This document shows, one piece after another, positions 35,248-48,800 of a stretch of DNA of 64,000 bases. The DNA comes from Paludibacter propionicigenes WB4 (GTDB taxonomy: Bacteria > Bacteroidota > Bacteroidia > Bacteroidales > Paludibacteraceae), in assembly GCF_000183135.1 (NCBI RefSeq), contig NC_014734.1:3410001-3474000 (forward strand). The letters are read 5' to 3'. Under the pieces are notes generated by a model. That model was not told where the DNA came from and did not search any database. It saw nothing but the letters and a program-made list of their open reading frames with translations. Positions within the stretch are counted from its first letter, which is position 1. Each line of letters opens with the position of its first letter. The translations under genes were made by a program, and so were the position numbers.

Positions 35248-37268
<2,021 letters not shown>

Positions 37269-38405
37269 ATGGCGAAAAAGGTTTTTGTGAGTGGTTGTTA
37301 TGATATGCTTCACAGTGGTCACGTTGCTTTTTTTGAAGAGGCAGCTCAATTAGGAGACTTGTATGTTGGCATAGGCTCCGATAAGACTATTTTTGAATTG
37401 AAAGCGAGAAAAACCATAAATTCCGATGCCGAGAGGCTTTATATGGTAAAATCGCTGAAAACAGTGAAAGATGCCTGGATTAATAGAGGTAGTGGTCTGC
37501 TTGATTTTTTGGAAGAAATAAAACACTTGCGTCCTGATATATTTTTTGTAAATGCCGATGGACATACATTGGCCAAAGAAAATCTTTGTAATGAATTGGG
37601 AATTGAGTATGTGGTAAGTAAACGTATCCCTCATGGTAATTTGCCTCCCCGCTCTACGACTGCTTTACGTCAGGAGTGCAACATTCCTTACAGAATAGAT
37701 TTAGCCGGAGGTTGGTTAGATCAGCCTTATGTGAGCAAACATGCTGGAGGTTCGGTTCTGACAATCTGTATAGAGCCTGATTATGAGTTTAATGATCGGA
37801 GCGGGATGTCAACCAGTAGCCGAAAGAAAGCTATTGAACTTTGGCAGTCGGATGTGCCTGAAGGCGATAAAGAAAAGCTAGCACGGATGTTATTCTGCTT
37901 CGAAAATCCTCCGGGAACAAAGTATGTGAGCGGATCTCAGGATTCGTTGGGAATTACTGTACCAGGTTTAAACAACCTTTATTACGAAGGAGATTTTTGG
38001 CCATCAAAAATTCAAAGCGTTCTGGATGATGATATCCTCGATTGGATTGAGCAGCGTTTGTGGATGATTCCGCTATATCCGCGTCACAAAGACTATGATG
38101 TATTGGCTGATACGCATATAACTCCGCAAAATGTGCAAGAGCTAAGTGATGCAACTAAAGCCTGTTGGGATGCATTGCTGGCAAAAGATGCTGTGGCTGT
38201 AGGGAAAGCCATGACTCAAAGTTTCGATGCTCAGATTACCATGTTTCCAAATATGATTTCAGAAGATATCTTGTCGCAGATAGAATCATATAAAAGTCGC
38301 GTACTGGGTTGGAAAATAAGTGGTGCAGGAGGTGGTGGCTATATGATTTTCTTTAGCGAGGAACCATTGGAAAATGCAATTCAGATTAGAATAAGACGGC
38401 AATAA
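37269..38405 (+). CDS. Fused cytidylyltransferase-like and GHMP kinase-like protein
   Basis: A 378-residue two-domain protein. Residues 1-135 are a cytidylyltransferase/RfaE-type nucleotidyltransferase with HSGH (15-18) and RSTTALRQE (128-136). From about 139 the sequence passes without a linker into a GHMP kinase-like domain: YRIDLAGGWLDQP (141-153) resembles motif 1 of fucokinase/HddA kinases, GMSTSS (179-184) may be a compact motif 2, and KISGAGGGGYMIFF (about 349-362) is motif 3. The layout parallels HldE and FKP, which join a sugar kinase to a nucleotidyltransferase, but with other domain pairings. A role making a nucleotide-activated sugar is inferred; the substrate is unknown. Confidence 0.75.
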   Translation: MAKKVFVSGCYDMLHSGHVAFFEEAAQLGDLYVGIGSDKTIFELKARKTINSDAERLYMVKSLKTVKDAWINRGSGLLDFLEEIKHLRPDIFFVNADGHTLAKENLCNELGIEYVVSKRIPHGNLPPRSTTALRQECNIPYRIDLAGGWLDQPYVSKHAGGSVLTICIEPDYEFNDRSGMSTSSRKKAIELWQSDVPEGDKEKLARMLFCFENPPGTKYVSGSQDSLGITVPGLNNLYYEGDFWPSKIQSVLDDDILDWIEQRLWMIPLYPRHKDYDVLADTHITPQNVQELSDATKACWDALLAKDAVAVGKAMTQSFDAQITMFPNMISEDILSQIESYKSRVLGWKISGAGGGGYMIFFSEEPLENAIQIRIRRQ

Positions 38406-38437
38406 AAATAATGAATAAGAAAAAATGATATTTTTCT

Positions 38438-38467
38438 TGCGTAAATAGAATTAATTTGCAATCTTTG
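38438..38467 (+). promoter_or_regulatory. Predicted promoter of the trp operon
   Basis: TTG at 38438-38440, a 19-base spacer and a CATCTTTG box at 38460-38467 (7 of 8 to TAnnTTTG). Transcription would start shortly before the leader peptide ATG at 38493. Confidence 0.55.
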
Positions 38468-38492
38468 CACTCTCAAAACAAACAAAAAGGAA

Positions 38493-38549
38493 ATGAACTC
38501 AATTTTGACAGTAAATAAATTTTGGTGGTGGCACTTACGAATCAGCTAA
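38493..38549 (+). CDS. trpL: Tryptophan leader peptide (18 codons, three consecutive Trp)
   Basis: The frame ATG to TAA reads MNSILTVNKFWWWHLRIS. Three TGG codons in a row (38523-38531) are very unlikely by chance in an AT-rich leader directly upstream of trp genes. An AAGGA purine tract precedes the ATG. A ribosome stalled on the Trp codons would leave 38549-38556 free to pair with 38615-38622 and prevent the terminator at 38601-38635; a ribosome that reaches the stop codon would cover 38549-38556 and allow termination. No protein function is expected beyond this sensing. Confidence 0.88.
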   Translation: MNSILTVNKFWWWHLRIS

Positions 38550-38622
38550 TCGTGAGAGGTAACACCTGTGTATATTGTCAAAACAAAAAGATATTACAAA
38601 AAGGCTTGTCGGAACTCACGAT
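38549..38622 (+). promoter_or_regulatory. Antiterminator arms of the trp attenuator
   Basis: ATCGTGAG (38549-38556) is the exact reverse complement of CTCACGAT (38615-38622). The 3' arm overlaps the loop and descending strand of the terminator, so the two structures exclude each other. A small hairpin AGGTaacACCT (38557-38567) lies between. Confidence 0.8.
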
Positions 38623-38635
38623 AAGCCTTTTTTTT
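38601..38635 (+). terminator. Rho-independent terminator of the trp attenuator
   Basis: AAGGCTTGTCG and CGATAAGCCTT form an 11-bp stem (one G-U) with a 7-base loop, followed by eight T residues (38628-38635). It stands between the leader peptide and trpB. Confidence 0.88.
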
Positions 38636-38640
38636 ATTTT

Positions 38641-38758
38641 ACCCCTAGTCCCTGAAGGGGAACTAAATTACAACTGTTTATTTAAAACAACTAGTATGAA
38701 TAAAGAGAAAGATATGCAAAACGAAACTAATTCCAACTCCCCTTTAGGAGCTGGAGGC
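38641..38758 (+). repeat. Start-codon-bearing inverted-repeat element, trpB copy
   Basis: The left arm ACCCCTAGTCCCTGAAGGGG begins at 38641, and a diverged inverted copy lies at 38736-38758 inside the trpB reading frame. Between them are ATTACAACTG and the trpB ATG (38696). The trpC copy (43266-43386) has the same layout, with the ATG exactly 40 bases before the right arm in both. Confidence 0.8.
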
Positions 38759-39928
38759 ATTGACGAAAACGGATACTACGGTGAATTTGGCGGAGCATAT
38801 ATCCCCGAAATTTTGCATGGTTCTTTTGAACGACTGAAGGAAGCCTTCTATGCTATAAAAGATGATGCCGGATTTAAAGCAGAATATTACGAATTGTTGA
38901 AAAACTACGTGGGACGCCCCTCGCCATTGTATTTTGCCAGTAGACTGTCGGCGGAATATGGAACAAAAGTTTACCTGAAGCGTGAAGACCTGAATCACAC
39001 AGGAGCACATAAAATAAACAATGCGTTGGGACAAATTCTGCTTGCCAAACGGATGGGGAAAACCCGTATTATTGCAGAAACAGGTGCCGGGCAGCACGGT
39101 GTGGCCACAGCGACTGCTTGTGCGTTGATGGGGTTGGAATGTATTGTATTTATGGGTAAAACCGATGTGGAACGCCAGTTTCTGAATGTGCAGAAGATGC
39201 GCATGTTGGGCGCCACTGTCGAACCGGTTACAAGTGGCAATATGACGCTGAAAGATGCTACCAACGAAGCTTTTCGCTATTGGTGCTCCAATCCTGATTC
39301 TTTTTATATTGTAGGTTCCACGGTGGGTGCGCACCCTTATCCGGATATGGTGGGTTTCTTCCAATCAGTGATCAGCGAGGAAATTAAATGGCAACTGCAG
39401 GAACAAATTGGGCGTGATTATCCTGATTACCTGATGGCCTGCGTAGGCGGAGGTAGCAACGCTATGGGAACTTATTATCATTATCTGAATGATGACCGCG
39501 TGAAAATTGTATCAGCAGAAGCAGGAGGTTTAGGTGTTGATACCGGCGAAACGGCTGCAACCATTTCGTTGGGAACAACAGGTATTATCCATGGAGCCAA
39601 AACATTGTTGATTCAGGATGAAGATGGACAAATTATAGAACCCTATTCCATTTCAGCAGGATTGGATTATCCGGGAATCGGTCCTGCACATGCGTTTTTT
39701 GCAAAGTCGGGCCGAACAAAAGTGTTGGCAATAAATGACGACGAAGCACTGGATGCTGCTTTCGAACTCACCCGACTGGAAGGAATTATTCCGGCTATAG
39801 AATCGGCGCACGCGCTGGCACTCTTGAAAAAAGAAAAAGCAACTTTTAAACCCGATGATATTGTGGTTCTCACAGTTTCTGGTCGTGGTGACAAGGATAT
39901 GGATACTTATGTGAAGCATTTTAAATAA
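38696..39928 (+). CDS. trpB: Tryptophan synthase beta chain
   Basis: A 410-residue PLP enzyme condensing indole with serine. The PLP lysine is in LKREDLNHTGAHKINNALGQ (about 97-116), GAGQHGVATATACALMG follows, and VGGGSNAMGTYYHY (about 254-267) binds the phosphate. The family-like sequence begins only at DENGYYGEFGGAYIPE; the first 21 residues (MNKEKDMQNETNSNSPLGAGG) form an extension encoded by the inverted-repeat element and are homologous to the start of TrpC in the same operon. The frame is open further upstream to 38522, but that part contains the attenuator. First structural gene of trpB-E-G-D-C-F-A. Confidence 0.95.
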   Translation: MNKEKDMQNETNSNSPLGAGGIDENGYYGEFGGAYIPEILHGSFERLKEAFYAIKDDAGFKAEYYELLKNYVGRPSPLYFASRLSAEYGTKVYLKREDLNHTGAHKINNALGQILLAKRMGKTRIIAETGAGQHGVATATACALMGLECIVFMGKTDVERQFLNVQKMRMLGATVEPVTSGNMTLKDATNEAFRYWCSNPDSFYIVGSTVGAHPYPDMVGFFQSVISEEIKWQLQEQIGRDYPDYLMACVGGGSNAMGTYYHYLNDDRVKIVSAEAGGLGVDTGETAATISLGTTGIIHGAKTLLIQDEDGQIIEPYSISAGLDYPGIGPAHAFFAKSGRTKVLAINDDEALDAAFELTRLEGIIPAIESAHALALLKKEKATFKPDDIVVLTVSGRGDKDMDTYVKHFK

Positions 39929-39980
39929 TTGTCATTGGTCGCCTGTTGCCAGTCAACTGTCTTTGGACTTTAATGACTGC

Positions 39981-40005
39981 AGACCGGAGACCGGAGACTT
40001 AAGAC
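39981..40005 (+). repeat. GACCGGA repeat before trpE
   Basis: AGACCGGAGACCGGAGACTT followed by AAGAC, 9 bases before the trpE ATG. Similar GACnGGAGACCGG sequence occurs before trpA (44878-44900) and a looser relative before trpG (41522-41553). Confidence 0.6.
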
Positions 40006-40013
40006 ATAATTAT

Positions 40014-41417
40014 ATGAAACTATTCGTTCATTCAAAAAAGATGCTGGCCGATTTACAGACGCCGGTGGGAATTTACCTCAAGATACGCGATTTATATACT
40101 AACTCTGTGTTGTTGGAAAGTTCCGATTATCACGGTGTTGAAAACAGTTACTCGTATATCGGCTTTTGTCCGATTGGTGGAATTTCGGTCAATCATTTTG
40201 TGATTAAAGAGGAATATCCCGACGGAACTAAGCTTGAAACACCGGTAACCGGAAAATTGACGGTGGCTGAGCGTTTCGATGCATTTCTGAAATCGGTTGA
40301 GCTGGTAAAAAATGATAATCCTGTGGGAATAAATGGTTTATTCGGATACTCGTCTTATGAGTCGGTGCAGTACTTTGAAGATGTAAAGCTTACAGCCCGC
40401 GAAACTGTCCCGGGAAGCATGCCGGGCTTGCATTATGTATTGTTTAAATACATTATTGCTGTGAATCATTTTAATAATGAATTGACCATTATTGAGAATT
40501 TGCTCGAAGGTGAAACCTCAAAAATTGCTGAGATAGAAGAAATTCTTGGAAATAATAACATAGCAACCTATGACTTTGAGGCTGTCGGTGTGGAAAAATG
40601 TGATATTTCAAATGAGGATTATAAGAAAATGGTAGCTCGTGGCAAAGAGGAATGCTTCAAAGGAAATGTTTTCCAGATTGTGCTTTCGCGCCGTTTTTAT
40701 CAGCAATACAAAGGGGACGATTTTATGCTTTATCGTACCTTGCGCTCGGTGAATCCGTCACCCTATTTGTTTTACTTCAATTTTGGCGATTTCCGAATTT
40801 TCGGTTCGTCGCCCGAAGCTCACCTGGTGGTGGATGCCAAAAAGCAGAAAGCTTTCATCAAACCTATTGCCGGAACATTCCGCCGCACGGGTAATGACGA
40901 AAAGGATGCCGAACTTGCAGAGAAACTCAGCACCGATAAAAAAGAAAATGCGGAGCATGTGATGTTGGTCGATTTGGCACGCAATGATTTGAGCCGCAAT
41001 ACTGATCATGTGGAGGTTGAGGTGTTCCGCGAAGTGCAGTATTATTCGCACGTATTACATTTGGTGTCAAGCGTTAGCGGACAGCTAAAACCTGACACTA
41101 AAGTTATTAAACTTTTTGCCGACACATTTCCGGCCGGAACGCTTTCGGGAGCTCCGAAAATAAAAGCCATGCAACTTATTGATAGCATTGAGCCCCACGA
41201 CCGAGGTCCTTATGGCGGTTGTCTTGGTTATATCGGTTTCGATGGCAGCATGAATCAGGCCATTACCATACGATCATTTGTAAGTAAAAATAATACGCTT
41301 TATTATCAGGCCGGTGCCGGTATCGTTGCCAAGTCTGATGAAGAAAGTGAATTGCAGGAGGTAAATAATAAACTGGCGGCGCTCAAAAAGGCGGTGGATG
41401 TTGCTTCAGGAAGATAA
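40014..41417 (+). CDS. trpE: Anthranilate synthase component I
   Basis: A 467-residue chorismate-using enzyme that works with TrpG to make anthranilate. The chorismate-binding core contains FQIVLSRRFYQQYKGDD (about 222-238), PSPYLFYFNFGDFRIFGSSPEAHL, IAGTFRRTGNDEKD, EHVMLVDLARNDLSR, and FPAGTLSGAPKIKAM, and ends IRSFVSK...YQAGAGIVAKSDEESE. The start MKLFVHSKKMLADLQTPVGIY is the ATG at 40014; the 17 codons before it are repeat sequence. Feedback inhibition by Trp at the N-terminal domain is expected for the family. Confidence 0.95.
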   Translation: MKLFVHSKKMLADLQTPVGIYLKIRDLYTNSVLLESSDYHGVENSYSYIGFCPIGGISVNHFVIKEEYPDGTKLETPVTGKLTVAERFDAFLKSVELVKNDNPVGINGLFGYSSYESVQYFEDVKLTARETVPGSMPGLHYVLFKYIIAVNHFNNELTIIENLLEGETSKIAEIEEILGNNNIATYDFEAVGVEKCDISNEDYKKMVARGKEECFKGNVFQIVLSRRFYQQYKGDDFMLYRTLRSVNPSPYLFYFNFGDFRIFGSSPEAHLVVDAKKQKAFIKPIAGTFRRTGNDEKDAELAEKLSTDKKENAEHVMLVDLARNDLSRNTDHVEVEVFREVQYYSHVLHLVSSVSGQLKPDTKVIKLFADTFPAGTLSGAPKIKAMQLIDSIEPHDRGPYGGCLGYIGFDGSMNQAITIRSFVSKNNTLYYQAGAGIVAKSDEESELQEVNNKLAALKKAVDVASGR

Positions 41418-41422
41418 TATTT

Positions 41423-41471
41423 GCCTTCGGCGATATTTGTCCTTTGGACGATATAAGGCTTCGCCGATATT
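41423..41471 (+). repeat. Mini-hairpin/GATATT repeat, trpE-trpG spacer
   Basis: Three triloop hairpins in a row: GCCTTCGGC-GATATT, GTCCTTTGGAC-GATATA and GGCTTCGCC-GATATT. Stems differ but stay self-complementary. The module starts 5 bases after the trpE stop. Confidence 0.75.
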
Positions 41472-41521
41472 AATTGTTACTAGCTTTGTAATACTTAGAA
41501 TAAAAATATACTATGATTGAA

Positions 41522-41553
41522 GGACTTTTGACCTTTGACTGTAGACAATAGAC
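41522..41553 (+). repeat. Short TTGACC/TAGACAA repeat before trpG
   Basis: The sequence GACTTTTGACCTTTGACTG and then TAGACAATAGACAA ends 6 bases before the trpG ATG. It is a degenerate direct repeat with a GAC/TGAC core related to the element before trpE. Confidence 0.4.
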
Positions 41554-41559
41554 AAATTT

Positions 41560-42126
41560 ATGAAGATATTAGTTTTCGATAATTACGACTCGTTTACCTA
41601 CAACCTGGTGCATGCAGTCAAAAAATTGGGATATACCGATGTGGAAGTGCATCGCAACGACCAGATAGCATTAGAAGAAATTGCACGTTTCGATAAAATT
41701 ATCCTGTCGCCGGGTCCCGGTGTGCCGTCCGAATCGGGCATTTTGTTGGATGTTATACGGACGTATGCTCCGTCTAAACCCATTTTGGGCGTATGCCTGG
41801 GAGAGCAGGCCATTGCTGAAGCTTTTGGCGGTACATTGATAAACCTTACCGATGTTCACCACGGGATAAGTTCTATGGTAGATGTAGTGGCAGAAGATGT
41901 TCTTTTCAACGGGTTGGATAAAAAGCTGGAAGTGGGGCGTTATCATTCCTGGGCTGCTGAGAAATCTACCTTGCCGGAATGCCTGACCATTACAGCTGTG
42001 GATGAAGAAGGTATGATTATGGCATTGGCACACAAAATCTACGATGTACGTGGCGTTCAGTTTCATCCGGAATCGGTATTAACTCCTGACGGGGAGAAAA
42101 TGCTGAAGAATTGGTTGGAAGCTTAG
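41560..42126 (+). CDS. trpG: Anthranilate synthase component II (glutaminase)
   Basis: A 188-residue class I glutamine amidotransferase that supplies ammonia to TrpE. The catalytic triad is visible: Cys79 in LGVCLGEQAIAEAFGG, His and Glu in VQFHPESVL near 171-173. ILSPGPGVPSESG (48-60) is the oxyanion/PGP region, and VGRYHSWAAE near 126-135 is conserved. The usual His after the nucleophile loop (GHQ) is Glu here, a tolerated variation. The stop codon lies inside the first unit of an 8-bp tandem repeat. Confidence 0.94.
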   Translation: MKILVFDNYDSFTYNLVHAVKKLGYTDVEVHRNDQIALEEIARFDKIILSPGPGVPSESGILLDVIRTYAPSKPILGVCLGEQAIAEAFGGTLINLTDVHHGISSMVDVVAEDVLFNGLDKKLEVGRYHSWAAEKSTLPECLTITAVDEEGMIMALAHKIYDVRGVQFHPESVLTPDGEKMLKNWLEA

Positions 42127-42194
42127 TCAATTGGTTAATTAGTTAATTAGTTAATTAGTTAATCGGTTGATTAGTTGACTGGTTGATTGGTTTA
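42123..42194 (+). repeat. 8-bp tandem array in the trpG-trpD spacer
   Basis: Nine consecutive 8-base units of the form (T/C)T(A/G)GTTAA to TTGGTTGA, in strict period, starting at 42123 within the last codons of trpG (the TAG stop is part of unit 1) and ending at 42194. Confidence 0.8.
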
Positions 42195-42230
42195 ATAGAA
42201 TAAAAAACATTATATAAGGTTCTCAGCAAG

Positions 42231-42258
42231 TGCTTGCCTCTTACTGCTTACCTCTTAC
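42231..42258 (+). repeat. 14-bp direct repeat before trpD
   Basis: TGCTTGCCTCTTAC and TGCTTACCTCTTAC are adjacent copies with one difference, followed by a partial TGCTGA. They end 10 bases before the trpD ATG. Confidence 0.65.
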
Positions 42259-42268
42259 TGCTGAATAT

Positions 42269-43264
42269 ATGAAACAAATACTTAATCAATTATTTAATCA
42301 CCAGTCGCTGACTCGCGAGGAAGCAGCAGAAGTGATGACCAACATAGCTGCCGGAAAGTATAATGATGCTCAAATAGCCGCATTTATATCTGTATATTTG
42401 ATGCGCAGTATTGAACTCGATGAATTGATTGGCTTCCGTAATGCCTTGTTGGAGCTTGCTATTCCGATGGATTTGTCGGAATTCGATGCACTCGATATTG
42501 TTGGTACAGGCGGTGATGGAAAAAATACGTTCAATATCTCCACTTGCAGCTGTTTTGCAGTGGCGGGAGCAGGCTATAAAGTGGCCAAACACGGCAATTA
42601 TGGTGCTACCTCGGTCAGTGGGGCATCGAATGTACTCGAGTATTATGGCGCCAAATTTACGACGGATATCGATGTGATAAAACGCTCGCTCGACCAATCG
42701 GGATTTGCTTATTTACATGCACCGTTTTGTAATCCTGCTATGAAAAACGTAGCGCCTGTACGTAAAAATCTGGGTGTACGCACTTTCTTCAATGTGCTGG
42801 GACCACTTATCAGTCCGGTGCGTCCTCAGTATCAATGTTTGGGCGTATATAGTTTGAAAATGATGCGTCTTTACAATTATATTTATCAAAATCTGGGAGT
42901 GCAATATTCTGTCGTTCATAGTTTGGATGGATACGATGAAATCTCGCTGACAGATACCTGTAAGATTATGACCAATGCCGGTGAGTTTGTTTATACACCG
43001 GAACAACTTGGTTTCAAACGTTTAAAACAAGAAGAACTCTCAGGAGGCGAAACAGTTGACGATGCCGCACAGATATTTATCAATGTGCTGGATAACAACG
43101 CTACCGAAGCCCAACGCAATGCTGTAATTATCAACTCGGCACTGGCAATTCAGACACGCAATCCGATAAAACCAATGGAGCAATGCATTGCTGAAGCCAC
43201 CGAATCGCTTGCTGGTGGATATGCCAAAAAAGCGTTTGAAAAATTTGTGGAGATATATAAATAA
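42269..43264 (+). CDS. trpD: Anthranilate phosphoribosyltransferase
   Basis: A 331-residue enzyme transferring phosphoribose from PRPP to anthranilate. DIVGTGGDGKNTFNISTC (about 76-93) is the PRPP-binding loop, KHGNYGATSVSGASNVLEYYG (about 104-124) and FAYLHAPFCNPAMKNVAPVRKNLGVRTFFNVLGPL (about 144-178) contain the anthranilate-binding segments. The start is the ATG at 42269 (MKQILNQLFNHQSL); the 13 upstream in-frame codons derive from a 14-bp repeat. It is third in the E-G-D order of the operon. Confidence 0.95.
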   Translation: MKQILNQLFNHQSLTREEAAEVMTNIAAGKYNDAQIAAFISVYLMRSIELDELIGFRNALLELAIPMDLSEFDALDIVGTGGDGKNTFNISTCSCFAVAGAGYKVAKHGNYGATSVSGASNVLEYYGAKFTTDIDVIKRSLDQSGFAYLHAPFCNPAMKNVAPVRKNLGVRTFFNVLGPLISPVRPQYQCLGVYSLKMMRLYNYIYQNLGVQYSVVHSLDGYDEISLTDTCKIMTNAGEFVYTPEQLGFKRLKQEELSGGETVDDAAQIFINVLDNNATEAQRNAVIINSALAIQTRNPIKPMEQCIAEATESLAGGYAKKAFEKFVEIYK

Positions 43265-43265
43265 G

Positions 43266-43386
43266 ACCCCTAACCCCTAAAGGGGAATAAAAAACATTAC
43301 AACTGATTCTTTTGATATTCAAAATGAATAATGACAAAAACATACAAGATAATAGTAACTCTAATTCCCCTTTAGGGGTTAGGGGT
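43266..43386 (+). repeat. Start-codon-bearing inverted-repeat element, trpC copy
   Basis: Perfect 23-bp inverted arms at 43266-43288 (ACCCCTAACCCCTAAAGGGG...) and 43364-43386 flank 75 bases holding ATTACAACTG, the trpC start (ATG 43324) and the first codons. The right arm is translated as part of NSNSPLGVRG. Transcribed RNA could fold the start codon into the loop of a 23-bp stem. Confidence 0.85.
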
Positions 43387-44166
43387 AGTAATATCTTAGA
43401 TAAAATAATAGCAAGTAAAAAAGTTGAAGTGGCGGCTCGTAATCTCTCAACACCTGTTTCGGCTTTAGAAAAGTCTCCTGTTTTTTCCCGTAAATGCTTG
43501 TCGTTGAAGCAAAGTTTGCTGAACTCGGAATCGGGAATTATTTCTGAGTTTAAACGTAAATCGCCGTCACTCGGTTGGATACACGAAGATGCGGACGTGG
43601 TGGATGTAACTTCGGGTTATAGTGCAGCCGGAGCCTCAGGTATTTCTATTCTTACGGATGAAGAGTATTTTGGCGGTACGCCAATGGATTTGATGGCTGC
43701 CCGTCAGTTTATAGCTTGTCCGGTGTTGCGTAAGGATTTTGTGATTGACGAATATCAGCTTTACGAAGCCAAAGCCATGGGGGCTGATGTGGTGCTGCTG
43801 ATTGCCGCCGCGCTCACTGTGCAACAAACGCTTGAGCTTGCCCGCAAAGCACATGAACTCGGGTTGGAAGTATTGCTTGAAGTACATAATGCCGAAGAAC
43901 TCGGTCATGCCAACGACTACGTGGATTTGTTGGGTGTCAACAACCGTAACCTGAAAACTTTTGAACAAAACATTCAGACTTCGTTCAATTTGGCAGCATT
44001 GATTCCAGATCAGTTAGTGAAAGTGAGCGAAAGCGGCATCTCTAAGGGGGAGACCGTTAAGGAATTGCGAAAGGTAGGTTACAAAGGTTTCCTGATGGGT
44101 GAAAATTTTATGAAGGAAGAAGATCCTGCGGCAGCGCTAGCGAATTTTATTGAAAATTTACAGTAG
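43324..44166 (+). CDS. trpC: Indole-3-glycerol phosphate synthase
   Basis: A 280-residue TIM barrel converting CdRP to indole-3-glycerol phosphate. IISEFKRKSPSLGWI (about 74-88; catalytic Lys), YSAAGASGISILTDEEYFGG (about 99-118), CPVLRKDFVIDEYQLYEAKAMGADVVLLIAA, EVLLEVHNAEE and GVNNRNLKTFEQN are all conserved. Family-like sequence begins at ILDKIIASKKVEVAARN; the first 21 residues (MNNDKNIQDNSNSNSPLGVRG) come from the inverted-repeat element shared with trpB. The stop TAG is the first triplet of a 26-bp palindrome. Confidence 0.95.
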   Translation: MNNDKNIQDNSNSNSPLGVRGSNILDKIIASKKVEVAARNLSTPVSALEKSPVFSRKCLSLKQSLLNSESGIISEFKRKSPSLGWIHEDADVVDVTSGYSAAGASGISILTDEEYFGGTPMDLMAARQFIACPVLRKDFVIDEYQLYEAKAMGADVVLLIAAALTVQQTLELARKAHELGLEVLLEVHNAEELGHANDYVDLLGVNNRNLKTFEQNIQTSFNLAALIPDQLVKVSESGISKGETVKELRKVGYKGFLMGENFMKEEDPAAALANFIENLQ

Positions 44167-44189
44167 AGACGCAAGGCCTTGCGTCTCTA
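44164..44189 (+). repeat. 26-bp perfect palindrome at the trpC stop
   Basis: TAGAGACGCAAGG is followed immediately by its reverse complement CCTTGCGTCTCTA, with no loop. It starts with the trpC stop codon and ends 14 bases before the trpF ATG. There is no T tract, so termination is unlikely. Confidence 0.85.
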
Positions 44190-44203
44190 ACAATTGATTG
44201 AAC

Positions 44204-44824
44204 ATGAAAATCAAAATCTGCGGGATGAAAATCCCTGAAAATATATATGCAATTGCGGAGTTGAAGCCCGATTTTATGGGTTTCATTTTTTACCCCAAGT
44301 CACCACGCTATGCTGAACCGTTGGATATGGAGGCATTAAAGGCATTGCCCAGGCGAATTTTGAAAATAGGTGTTTTTGTAAATGCGTCGTTGGATGATAT
44401 GCTGACTGCGATAAAAAAATACGCGCTCAACGGAGTACAATTGCACGGCACAGAGTCTGAAGATATTTGTTATACCTTAAAAATGGCAGGTTTGCTTGTA
44501 TTTAAAGCATTCCCGGTGGCTGAGGTATCTGATTTTGATGCAACAGACAGATACGAAGGTACCTGCGACTTTTTTTTGTTTGATACGAAAACCAAAGAGT
44601 ATGGAGGCTCGGGTGTGAAGTTCGACTGGAGAATGTTGGAGAGCTATAAAGGTGAAACGGCTTTTTTGCTGAGTGGTGGAATTTCTGCCGATGACGCGGA
44701 TGCCATACGTGCCATCAATCATCCAAAGTTCACCGGAATTGACCTGAATAGTAAGTTTGAGGTGGAACCGGGACTTAAAGATATTGATTTACTAAAGAGT
44801 TTTTTGAAAGAGATAGGAAAATGA
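44204..44824 (+). CDS. trpF: Phosphoribosylanthranilate isomerase
   Basis: A 206-residue TIM barrel performing the Amadori rearrangement of PRA to CdRP. KICGMKIPENI (2-14 with the catalytic Cys), MGFIFYPKSPRYAEP (about 28-42), GVFVNASLDDM, VQLHGTESED and the C-terminal LLSGGISADDADAI and FTGIDLNSKFEVEPGLKD (catalytic Asp) are present. Monofunctional, separate from trpC. I use ATG 44204; a TTG two codons earlier is not needed. The following spacer carries two repeat families. Confidence 0.95.
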   Translation: MKIKICGMKIPENIYAIAELKPDFMGFIFYPKSPRYAEPLDMEALKALPRRILKIGVFVNASLDDMLTAIKKYALNGVQLHGTESEDICYTLKMAGLLVFKAFPVAEVSDFDATDRYEGTCDFFLFDTKTKEYGGSGVKFDWRMLESYKGETAFLLSGGISADDADAIRAINHPKFTGIDLNSKFEVEPGLKDIDLLKSFLKEIGK

Positions 44825-44829
44825 TAGTT

Positions 44830-44857
44830 GCTTCGCGATATTAGCTTCGCTGATATT
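44830..44857 (+). repeat. Mini-hairpin/GATATT repeat, trpF-trpA spacer
   Basis: GCTTCGC-GATATT and AGCTTCGCT-GATATT in direct succession, 5 bases after the trpF stop. It is the third copy of the family in the window. Confidence 0.7.
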
Positions 44858-44877
44858 AATTGTAAATAAAATATATA

Positions 44878-44900
44878 GGACTGGAGACCGGTGTCTGTCG
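44878..44900 (+). repeat. GACTGGAGACCGG repeat before trpA
   Basis: GGACTGGAGACCGGTGTCTG lies 22 bases before the trpA ATG. It shares GGAGACCGG with the element before trpE. Confidence 0.5.
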
Positions 44901-44921
44901 TCCGTTGTCAAAATAGAAATC

Positions 44922-45692
44922 ATGAACAGAATCAATCAATTATTCGAACAAAAGAAGGAAAACATCCTTTCGGTATATTTTACTGCCGGTTTTCCAAAGC
45001 TGGAGGACACCCTGCCAACACTAAAATGCCTTCAGGCAAATGGTGTGGATTTGGTGGAAATCGGAGTGCCATTTTCCGATCCGTTGGCCGACGGAATTGT
45101 GATACAAAACAGCAGTCAGCAAGCTCTACGAAACGGTATGAGCATCCGCAAGCTTTTCGACCAACTCACATCCGTTCGGGCAGACATTCATATTCCATTA
45201 ATCATGATGGGCTATCTGAATCCCATTATGCAGTTTGGTTTTGAGACGTTTTGTGCCGAATGTGCCAGAGTAGGAGTGGACGGTATGATCATTCCCGATC
45301 TGCCCATGGTCGACTACATCAACCAATACAAAGCCATTGCCGAGCGCTATGGATTGGAATTTATTTTCCTTATTACGCCCGAAACTTCGGAAGAACGTAT
45401 CCGTGAAATCGACAGTCATACCAACGGATTTATCTATATGGTTTCGTCGGCAGCCGTTACAGGGACGCAAAATTCGTTCGACACGAAGGTAGATTACTTT
45501 AACCGCATCAACTCGATGAACCTGAAAAATCCGCGCCTGATTGGCTTTGGAATCTCCAATAAATCAACCCGCGATATGGTGAACCGCTATTCTTCAGGAG
45601 CCATTATTGGTAGTGCTTTTATCAAAGCACTTGAAGAAACGCAGGATGTAGAGAAAGGGGTGAAACTGCTGTTGGACAAATTGGAAGAGTAA
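44922..45692 (+). CDS. trpA: Tryptophan synthase alpha chain
   Basis: A 256-residue TIM barrel that cleaves indole-3-glycerol phosphate and channels indole to TrpB. VDLVEIGVPFSDPLADGIVIQNSSQQALRNG (about 41-71) contains the catalytic Glu and Asp; MMGYLNPIMQFG, GMIIPDLPMVD and FIYMVSSAAVTGTQNSFD follow, with IGFGISNKSTRDMV near 205. It is the last gene of the operon, followed by a bidirectional terminator. Unusually, trpB is at the far 5' end rather than beside trpA, as is common in Bacteroidales. Confidence 0.95.
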   Translation: MNRINQLFEQKKENILSVYFTAGFPKLEDTLPTLKCLQANGVDLVEIGVPFSDPLADGIVIQNSSQQALRNGMSIRKLFDQLTSVRADIHIPLIMMGYLNPIMQFGFETFCAECARVGVDGMIIPDLPMVDYINQYKAIAERYGLEFIFLITPETSEERIREIDSHTNGFIYMVSSAAVTGTQNSFDTKVDYFNRINSMNLKNPRLIGFGISNKSTRDMVNRYSSGAIIGSAFIKALEETQDVEKGVKLLLDKLEE

Positions 45693-45733
45693 TCTTAATA
45701 GGTCTTCGAGGTCTTAATTGCGATTGATAAAAC

Positions 45734-45770
45734 AAAAAATGCCGAACTCGTAATGAGTCCGGCATTTTTT
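45734..45770. terminator. Bidirectional terminator between trpA and infB
   Basis: AAAAAATGCCG and CGGCATTTTTT form the outer stem with an inner ACTC/GAGT pairing. It can end the trp operon from the left and infB from the right. Confidence 0.85.
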
Positions 45771-45797
45771 ATAATATAATTCGTGTTTACTATTAAT

Positions 45798-45837
45798 TGA
45801 TCACTGATCACTGCTAACTGATCACTGCTAACTGTTA
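45798..45837. repeat. 14-bp direct repeat at the infB stop
   Basis: Two exact copies of TGATCACTGCTAAC (45805-45818 and 45819-45832) preceded by a partial TGATCAC. The array ends at the infB stop codon (45835-45837). Confidence 0.75.
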
Positions 45838-48800
45838 CAGTGTTTTTCTCACTTCCGTTTCTTCGTAGCTTTCTACTATATCGCCCACCTGAATGTCGTT
45901 GTAGTTTTTGATATTCAAACCACATTCGTAGTTTGTACCTACTTCTTTCACGTCGTCTTTAAAACGTTTGAGCGAGTCAAGCTCACCGGTATAGACTACG
46001 ATACCATCGCGGATGATACGAATTTTGTTAGAACGTTTAATCTTACCTTCGCGAACCAAACATCCGGCCACTGTACCCACTTTGGTGATTTTAAATACTT
46101 CGCGAATTTCAACCGTGGCGGTGATTTCTTCCTTGATTTCGGGCGAAAGCATACCTTCCATAGCCGATTTGATTTCTTCAATCGCGTCGTAGATGATAGA
46201 ATAAAGTCGGATATCGATTTCTTCTTTTTCAGCAATTTTACGAGCCGAAGTAGTAGGGCGAACCTGGAAACCGCAAATGATAGCATTAGAAGCAGCTGCC
46301 AGCAAAATATCCGAATCGGAAATGGCACCCACCGCTTTGTGTATTACATTTACCTGAATATTTTCTGTTGACAGGTTAATCAGTGCATCCGATAAAGCTT
46401 CTACCGAACCATCCACGTCACCTTTCACAATGATATTCAATTCCTTGAAATCGCCAAGTGCTATACGGCGACCCAGTTCGTCGAGCGTAAAGTGTTTCTT
46501 GGTACGCAGGCTTTGTTCGCGTTGGAGTTGCTCACGTTTATTGGCAATCTCGCGCGCCTCGTGTTCAGAGTTCATCACGTTGAAGTTATCACCCGCCTGA
46601 GGTGCTCCGTTTAATCCGAGTATCAAAGCCGGTTCTCCCGGTAGTACTTCTTTTATGCGTTGGTTACGTTCGTTGAACATAGCCTTTATTCTACCAAAGT
46701 TAGTTCCTGCCAATACCACATCTCCCTGATGCAATGTTCCGTTCTGAATCAGGATGGTTGAAACATATCCACGTCCTTTGTCCAGTGTCGATTCTATCAC
46801 CGAACCAATAGCACGCTTGCCCGGGTTGGCTTTCAGCTCAAGCAGTTCGGCTTCGAGCAATACTTTTTCAAGCAACTCGGCCACTCCATCGCCTTTTTTG
46901 GCTGATATATCCTGCGATTGGTATTTACCACCCCAGTCTTCAACCAAATAATTCATTTGAGCCAGCGTTTCCTTTATTTTTTCAGGATTTGCACCCGGTT
47001 TATCTACCTTGTTGATTGCAAAAATCATAGGCACATTGGCTGCTGCTGCGTGGTTAATCGCTTCAATGGTTTGAGGCATGACGTTATCGTCGGCAGCTAC
47101 TATGATAATAGCGATATCAGTTACTTTCGCACCACGGGCACGCATAGCCGTAAATGCTTCGTGACCCGGAGTATCAAGGAAAGTGATTCGTTGACCGTTT
47201 TCCAACTTCACATTGTATGCTCCGATGTGCTGAGTTATACCACCGGCTTCACCGGCAATCACATTTGTTTTCCGAATGTGGTCGAGCAAGGATGTTTTAC
47301 CGTGGTCAACGTGTCCCATTACAGTCACAATTGGAGCGCGTGGCAACAAATCTTCTTCGTTATCTGCTTCTTCCTCTCCAATAGCTTCAATTACGTCGGC
47401 ACTTACATATTCTGTTGTAAAGCCGAATTCTTCAGCCACAATATTAATTGTCTCAGCATCCAAACGCTGGTTGATAGAAACCATCAAACCAATGTTCATA
47501 CAGGTTGCAATAACCTGATTAACCGAAACGTCCATCATTACAGCCAGTTCGCTAGCCGTTACGAATTCGGTCAGTTTAATTACGCTTTCTTCGTCACGCT
47601 CACGTTGTGCCTGCTCTTGTTGACGTGCACTGTTGATATCACGTTTATCACGACGGTATTTTGACCCTTTGCCTTTTTTGTTGGCACCCGAAAGACGGGC
47701 TAAGGTTTCTTTTATTTGTTTCTGTACATCTTCTTCGTTGACAACGGTTTTAATCGATTTTTTCAAACGATCTCTATTTGGTGTCGGTTTAGCTGCACCT
47801 CCGCCACCACCGGTAGTTCCCGGAGTCACCTTTTTCGGGTGAGCAAAGCCTTGTGTAGCTCCATTTGCCTGAGGTACCTTGGTAATGTCAACTTTCTGGT
47901 TGGAGAAGCGTTCACGTTTTTTCTTCGGATGTGCCGATGCAGGATCAGCAGCAACCTCGGCAGCCGTACGCAGGATTTTCTTCTCGCCTGCGATAAATGG
48001 TTTTTTGCCGTCTAGTTTATTTTTGTCTTCACGCTCTTTGCGTTTCTGTTCTTTTGTTTTAGGTTTTGGACGGGTGCTTTGATTCAGCAGATCCAAATCA
48101 ATGGTTCCGATAACCACAGGAGCAACATCGATAGTGGGGCGAGTCAATGAGAATATTTCATCCTCATCATTGTCGTTGTTATCTTTCGCCGGAGTGTTTA
48201 CTTCGGCAGGCTCAGTTTCTTCTTTTAATTTGAACTTTTTAATCGGTTTAATAAGTTCTATTTTAGGTTCGGAAATTACTTTTTCTTCTTTTTCAGCTAC
48301 TTTCGGTTCTTCTTTTTCTTCAACCAAAGTTACTACCGGAGCTGTTTTAGGTTCTACCGTAACTTCAGGTTCTGCTTTCTGTACCGGCGGTGTTACAATT
48401 TCTTCCTTCTTTTCAGTAACCGGAGCTTCGGCAGCCTTGATTTCTTGTACTTCTACAGGTTTGATAACCTCAGCTTTTTCAATAATTTTTTCTTCTGCTA
48501 CGGGTTTCTCAACCACTATAGACTTTTCTGCAACCGGTGCTTGTGTTGGTACTTCAGGTTTCGTTTCCGGATGTTTGCTTTTTGCATTCAAATCTATATG
48601 TCCAACGGATTTGAAATGCGGTAACTGTTCTTCTGGAATTGAAATATGAATAGTTTCTGCAGATTTTTCAGCAGGTTTTGGTTGGTTATAACCTTCTATG
48701 GAAACAGTTGCAGCCTTCTCTTTGAGCTGGCGCTCCTGACTCAAGCGCTCCGATTCTATTTTCAGAGCCATATCTTTATTAAATTCTTTCGCTAACAAAA

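Follow-up and report, generated by a model that had tools for sequence, protein, structure and literature searches.

The trp operon of strain WB4 and its leader

The window, a 64-kb stretch of DNA covering bases 3410001–3474000 of the Paludibacter propionicigenes WB4 genome, contains the operon trpBEGDCFA, preceded by a leader region with a short reading frame and an intrinsic terminator. The first gene, trpB, scores 581.7 bits against TIGR00263 (cut-off 392.45); trpD, trpC, trpA and trpG (as the trpG/pabA subfamily) also exceed their NCBIfam cut-offs, and trpE and trpF are best matches that fall below theirs. Upstream lies a co-directional nucleotidyltransferase/kinase-like gene (37269–38405), the stop codon of which is about 190 nt before the terminator. 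The features discussed here are the following.

38437–38467, + strand: probable Bacteroidetes-type promoter, with TTG at 38437–38439, 20 nt, then AATCTTTG at 38460–38467 (sequence; motif in relatives)
38473–38610, + strand: match to Rfam RF01692, Bacteroid-trp, model positions 1–131 of 131 (62.5 bits, gathering cut-off 49)
38493–38549, + strand: leader peptide MNSILTVNKFWWWHLRIS, 18 codons, from ATG at 38493 to stop TAA at 38547–38549 (read directly; pattern kept in relatives)
38503–38583, + strand: leader hairpin with closing stem UUUUGACAGUA/UAUUGUCAAAA (minimum-energy fold; weak across relatives)
38523–38531, + strand: Trp codons TGG TGG TGG (read directly)
38534–38540, + strand: segment 1, CUUACGA, partner of segment 2 in the 1:2 hairpin (minimum-energy fold and relatives)
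38549–38556, + strand: segment 2, AUCGUGAG, the antiterminator 5′ arm, overlapping the leader stop codon by one base (sequence and relatives)
38598–38635, + strand: intrinsic terminator, stem 38598–38611/38619–38632, loop GAACUCA, T run 38628–38635 (fold, terminator scan and relatives)
38615–38622, + strand: antiterminator 3′ arm, CUCACGAU, made of terminator loop 38615–38618 and the top of the terminator 3′ strand, 38619–38622 (relatives)
38696–39928, + strand: trpB, the first gene of the operon (TIGR00263)
39963–45692, + strand: trpE, trpG, trpD, trpC, trpF and trpA, the remainder of the operon (NCBIfam)

An earlier note on this DNA had picked out the 18-codon frame with its three adjacent Trp codons, an exact 8-bp pairing and an 11-bp terminator stem followed by eight T residues, and all three are borne out by the sequence. 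Segment 2, ATCGTGAG at 38549–38556, is complementary to CTCACGAT at 38615–38622, which gives the 8-bp alternative pairing. The 11-bp terminator core (38601–38611/38619–38629) extends to 14 pairs if the A-U pairs into the T run are included, the most of any of the 13 terminators scored in a scan of 37200–46000. The antiterminator and the terminator share 38619–38622 and are thus mutually exclusive, with the possible exception of a partial pseudoknot that retains the lower stem. For the 168-nt leader the computed folding energy is −44.8 kcal/mol (z = −5.68), and none of 200 shuffled sequences was equally stable; this z-score, together with the Rfam E-value and the conservation in relatives described below, places the leader beyond chance. 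The motif TGGTGGTGG by itself was dropped as evidence, since it occurs at 80 places in the genome, as does its reversed form, which only shifts the register of the repeat and hence makes a weak control.

The minimum-energy fold also contains a 1:2 hairpin of 7 bp, in which CUUACGA (38534–38540) pairs with UCGUGAG (38550–38556). Its 3′ arm is the antiterminator arm itself, and it is nested in the larger hairpin closed by UUUUGACAGUA/UAUUGUCAAAA; the consensus structure of RF01692 likewise has a hairpin in this region. The earlier note, which favoured ribosome-mediated attenuation, had denied a separate 1:2 hairpin and described a compact design with a single alternative pairing. Attenuation stands as the best reading, but the denial was mistaken, and a novel compact attenuator without a 1:2 hairpin is ruled out by the minimum-energy fold and by the conservation of the 1:2 helix in relatives. 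Given that this hairpin is present and conserved, the four-part logic of an attenuator is complete.

The proposed promoter element AATCTTTG is a near match only, one base off TAnnTTTG, which has been named the Bacteroidetes-specific promoter sequence in the part of PMC6414381 consulted. Among 56 relatives, 35 have an exact TAnnTTTG that begins 20–45 nt ahead of the leader ATG, against 2 of 56 in a control interval. Transcription in WB4 may therefore start near 38472–38476, where the Rfam match begins.

Several observations concern the operon and genome more broadly. The trpB frame stays open across the terminator, so that a mechanical open reading frame call yields 468 amino acids from a TTG at 38522 (38522–39928), and an annotator might place the trpB start wrongly. 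A dispersed palindromic repeat (about ACCCCTAACCCCTAAAGGGGA) lies near 38641–38661, 38738–38758, 43266–43286 and 43366–43386. Repeats of this type occur at 52 places in the genome with at most one mismatch to a 14-mer (reversed control, 0); two copies are in frame near the N termini of TrpB (NSNSPLGAGG) and TrpC (NSNSPLGVRG), and 6 of the 30 copies inspected, out of the 52, fall inside a mechanical open reading frame of at least 90 amino acids. Runs of five His codons, searched for as a lead to a his leader, occur at four places in the WB4 genome.

Membership of the Bacteroid-trp family

RF01692 is the only Rfam family with a match over its cut-off in the 64-kb window (62.5 bits, E = 2.8e-5); no other family, T-box included, reaches its cut-off there. 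The match stands where the family is expected, in a Bacteroidete and ahead of genes for tryptophan synthesis (trpB from 38696, operon to 45692), and on its sequence the WB4 leader is to be taken as a member of this already known family, ordinary as a kind. Identity with the E. coli type of leader was dropped, as none of the 11 matches in 38400–38720 at E values up to 10 is to the enterobacterial Trp_leader (RF00513); Phe_leader, at 23.5 bits against a cut-off of 55, matches weakly and was dropped as well.

The Bacteroid-trp motif was published in 2010 by Weinberg et al., whose Table 1, the one place in the searched main text where the name occurs, gives it as probably RNA, probably cis-regulatory and of the taxon Bacteroidetes (PMC2864571). 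A 2019 study of Flavobacterium psychrophilum, in the part consulted, reports that a Bacteroid-Trp RNA is conserved ahead of that species' trp operon and describes it as similar to the E. coli leader (PMC6414381). A transcriptome paper on Bacteroides thetaiotaomicron treats leader-peptide-like short frames in general, the words ‘tryptophan’ and ‘trp’ being absent from its main text (PMC7366714), and a 2010 comparative paper on the attenuation of amino acid operons is cited in PMC4833913. No experimental test of a Bacteroidetes trp leader was found in the open-access literature, outside which most subscription papers fall. The earlier note had known of no characterised case in Bacteroidetes; the described family RF01692 includes this one, and the statement may hold for experimentally characterised cases.

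With strict filters, the RF01692 model matched in 30 of 60 relatives (22 over the cut-off), in 38 of 393 genomes across the order at E ≤ 0.001 (22 over the cut-off) and in 42 of 395 genomes across the phylum (38 over the cut-off). These counts are lower bounds, because four genomes of the host genus without a match (G396, G397, G407 and G413) carry a leader that was found through trpB (L142, L166, L158 and L164, respectively). Among six loci tested that carry such leaders, three give no match above the RF01692 cut-off (L068, L076 and L128).

Distribution and gene order

Loci from the host genus were retrieved by TrpB protein, independently of the RNA model. TrpB was found in 45 of 48 genomes. 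Thirty trpB loci were fetched, and in 28 of them trpB is preceded by a leader frame containing adjacent Trp codons and by a strong terminator; in the two exceptions, L140 and L157, the contig starts just 164 and 113 nt ahead of the TrpB match. We also used the best 80 of 591 named trpB loci. A frame with two adjacent Trp codons (WW) precedes trpB in 27 of these 80, accompanied by a scored terminator in 23. Twenty-five of the 27 are labelled Bacteroidales, and in these the 900 nt upstream of trpB contain no trp gene; the other two, L114 and L127, have trpF upstream and for that reason are probably chance frames. Among the 53 loci lacking a WW frame, a trp gene lies upstream in 41 (L061, L078, L088 and 38 others: trpF in 38, trpA in 2, trpG in 1), 2 are too short and 10 show none. 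Within these best 80 of 591 named loci, then, the WW leader goes with trpB as the first gene of the operon.

Two of those ten loci have an altered leader; the other eight depart from this pattern. The first, L058, has a single Trp codon (..NACLWRF..), retains the terminator and scores 67.6 bits against RF01692; in the second, L068, W-R-W takes the place of WW or WWW and the terminator is again kept. Two loci from Prevotellaceae, L071 and L076, keep the Trp leader and the hairpin and have no T run, which suggests decaying or differently acting leaders. The leader is also found in front of another gene: in eight loci from the phylum search, belonging to another family of the same class (L167–L174), the leaders are alike and trpE follows, and in two from the order (L023 and L030) a leader with a different segment 2 and terminator loop precedes trpE, the usual antiterminator not being seen in L023.

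Conservation and covariation of the competing helices

Leaders with adjacent Trp codons gave 119 rows, some of which are the same place fetched twice. A scored terminator was present in 114 (L018, cut by a contig end, was dropped, as were L071, L076, L114 and L127, with a weak terminator or none); 98 of these were distinct, and 57 remained under 85% identity. WWW occurs in 40 of the 57 non-redundant leaders and WW only in 17, WW being the entry condition. The earlier note had proposed looking in relatives for Trp codons and covarying stems, and the 57 leaders conserve both: the three competing helices keep 86–98% of their pairs, with covariation.

The terminator is paired in 98.4% of 626 cells, with a covariation score of 0.437 against 0.229 in shuffled alignments (reached in 0 of 500) and changes on both sides in 10 of 11 pairs. 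The antiterminator is paired in 91.0% of 442 cells; its covariation, 0.272, exceeds both shuffled alignments (0.204; 0 of 500) and slid versions of the helix (0.043–0.141), and double-change cells number 25 against 7.7 in shuffles, while neither the 4 pairs showing a double change nor the 11 pair types exceed what shuffles give. Its column pair 73/190 is G-C in 36 leaders, A-U in 14, G-U in 5 and unpaired in 2. As column 190 lies outside the terminator stem as counted (columns 170–180 with 192–202), the terminator does not explain this covariation. The 1:2 helix is paired in 85.8% of 395 cells, with a covariation of 0.281 against 0.197 shuffled (0 of 500) and 0.056–0.185 slid, and 28 of the 57 leaders lack its pair at columns 57/70. 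The basal stem UUUUGACAGUA/UAUUGUCAAAA is poorly conserved (59.5% paired, with many gaps; slid versions 37.5–52.1%).

On average, leaders also fit their own terminator better. Segment 2 and the terminator of the same locus score a mean of 17.87, compared with 15.37 when the two partners come from different loci and 10.83 when the letters of the segment-2 window are shuffled, and none of 2,000 permutations reached the mean of the own pairs. On a TrpB tree of 51 of the 57 rows (L023, L030, L167, L169, L172 and L174 have no TrpB on the locus), the A-U state at 73/190 needs four changes, two of them forced by well-supported branches. Tree-independent double changes at this most telling pair are few, with two supported pairs, one usually in the same direction, so that a sign test has no power.

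Geometry and timing of the proposed switch

A helix of at least 6 bp that starts 14–22 nt after the last Trp codon is present in 51 of the 57 leaders; in the other six (L006, L017, L023, L029, L060 and L079) the in-register antiterminator is short, shifted or absent. The stop codon begins 3–4 nt inside segment 2 in 30 of the 51, and in most cases segment 2 spells Ser-stop (UCG-URA). Eight of the 51 have a called leader frame that ends 12–38 nt past the start of segment 2, which would place a finishing ribosome further on. A ribosome covers about 15 nt beyond its P site. On this footprint, a ribosome waiting at the Trp codons would hide the RNA, segment 1 included, to about 38535–38541, and at the stop codon its cover would extend to about 38559 and take in segment 2; a helix that starts 14–22 nt after the last Trp codon would likewise be free under a stalled ribosome and covered by a ribosome at a nearby stop codon.

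Computed folding of the growing transcript follows this geometry. With the RNA masked to 38541, the antiterminator has a probability of 1.0 at exposed 3′ ends 38620–38626, 0.44 at 38628 and 0.03 at 38630, and the terminator wins from 38628 onwards. With the mask extended to 38559, the terminator alone forms, and with no mask the 1:2 helix has a probability of 1.0 and the antiterminator of 0 at all ends. RNA polymerase hides roughly 14 nt of its transcript, and ends 38620–38626 would therefore be exposed at about the time when the polymerase is on, or just past, the T run. The antiterminator helix alone is computed at −6.9 kcal/mol and the terminator at −18.6 kcal/mol; with so large a difference, the switch must be kinetic. 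The lower terminator stem of 10 pairs accounts for −8.3 kcal/mol, and this stem could possibly coexist with the antiterminator as a pseudoknot in which termination is reduced.

The antiterminator arm scores better with the terminator loop and 3′ strand than with the 5′ strand in 54 of the 57 leaders, and the loop and 5′ strand, as in E. coli, score better in L023, L060 and L128. Judging from the alignments, this competition for loop and 3′ strand appears to be a less usual detail of an otherwise ordinary attenuator. We see about an even chance that strand exchange in Bacteroidetes proceeds unlike that in E. coli: the ribosome-controlled arm, often carrying the Ser-stop UCG URA, would invade the terminator through a toehold in its loop and take the 3′ strand as the bases leave the polymerase at the T run, within a decision window of a few nucleotides and possibly through a loop-pairing pseudoknot intermediate. 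Such a loop-first exchange is directly testable in vitro.

Proposed mechanism and alternatives

A tryptophan-responsive, ribosome-mediated transcription attenuator very probably controls trpBEGDCFA in WB4, a soil Bacteroidetes bacterium. The reading rests on the Rfam match, the trp operon downstream, the conserved leader and terminator, the covarying helices, the timing seen in computed folds and the link with trpB as first gene; the parts themselves, with their spacing, conservation and covariation, are as described above. We infer translation of the peptide, ribosome stalling on it, an end of transcription at this site and tryptophan as the signal. When tRNA-Trp is charged, the ribosome would reach the stop codon and cover segment 2; with no ribosome present, segments 1 and 2 would pair. 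Either way the terminator would form and RNA polymerase would stop at about 38632–38637. With uncharged tRNA-Trp, the ribosome would stall at the three TGG codons and cover segment 1, and the free segment 2 would catch the terminator loop and the upper 3′ strand on their emergence from the polymerase, too early for the terminator to be finished, and the trp operon would be transcribed.

The same locus could be read as a plain intrinsic terminator of the co-directional gene 37269–38405, which ends about 190 nt before it, with a chance short frame in between and trpB served by its own downstream promoter. This is highly improbable: the leader frame, Trp codons, 1:2 hairpin and antiterminator are kept in many genera, even before trpE, and a promoter-like motif precedes the leader. 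Control of trpB might instead be translational, as the two Prevotellaceae loci that keep leader and hairpin and have no T run (L071 and L076) would allow; however, the hairpin of WB4, like that in 114 of the 119 WW-leader rows, is a scored terminator with a T run, and the WB4 hairpin stops about 60 nt short of trpB, so that we give this reading hardly any credence.

Alternative hairpins by themselves suit any antitermination mechanism, and a TRAP-like protein or T-box-like tRNA sensing might choose between the same two structures with no ribosome stalling. Such a sensor would leave unexplained the short frames with adjacent Trp codons at 28 genus loci and 25 named loci found by TrpB (among the best 80 of 591), as well as the stop codon that begins 3–4 nt into segment 2 in 30 of 51 leaders. 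With no T-box or other Rfam family over its cut-off in the window besides RF01692, we regard this explanation as very unlikely and retain ribosome-mediated attenuation.

Comparison with known systems

The WB4 leader shares with RF01692 the Trp codons before trp genes in Bacteroidetes and matches the model over its full length. It resembles the Flavobacterium psychrophilum leader, a Bacteroid-Trp RNA before the trp operon as given in the part of PMC6414381 consulted. The RF01692 model, however, stops at the terminator 5′ strand (its end corresponds to 38610), and annotation based on it omits the terminator 3′ strand and the antiterminator pairing. New here are that conserved antiterminator pairing beyond the Rfam model, the loop-and-3′-strand geometry, the stop codon inside the arm, the gene-order link and the correction concerning the 1:2 hairpin.

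The trp attenuator of E. coli, with its trpL leader (Rfam RF00513, Trp_leader), has two Trp codons, and its antiterminator uses the terminator 5′ strand, a feature of the E. coli example and not of the mechanism as such. Both systems have a leader peptide with adjacent Trp codons, a 1:2 hairpin, a mutually exclusive antiterminator and terminator, and a stop codon at which a finishing ribosome would lie over segment 2. They differ in that WB4 has three Trp codons, that its segment 2 pairs with the terminator loop and 3′ strand, that its operon begins with trpB and that its leader gives no RF00513 match (E up to 10). Conserved leaders in Bacteroidales and in a further family of their class form a counterpart to classic trp attenuation, which is best known from enterobacteria.
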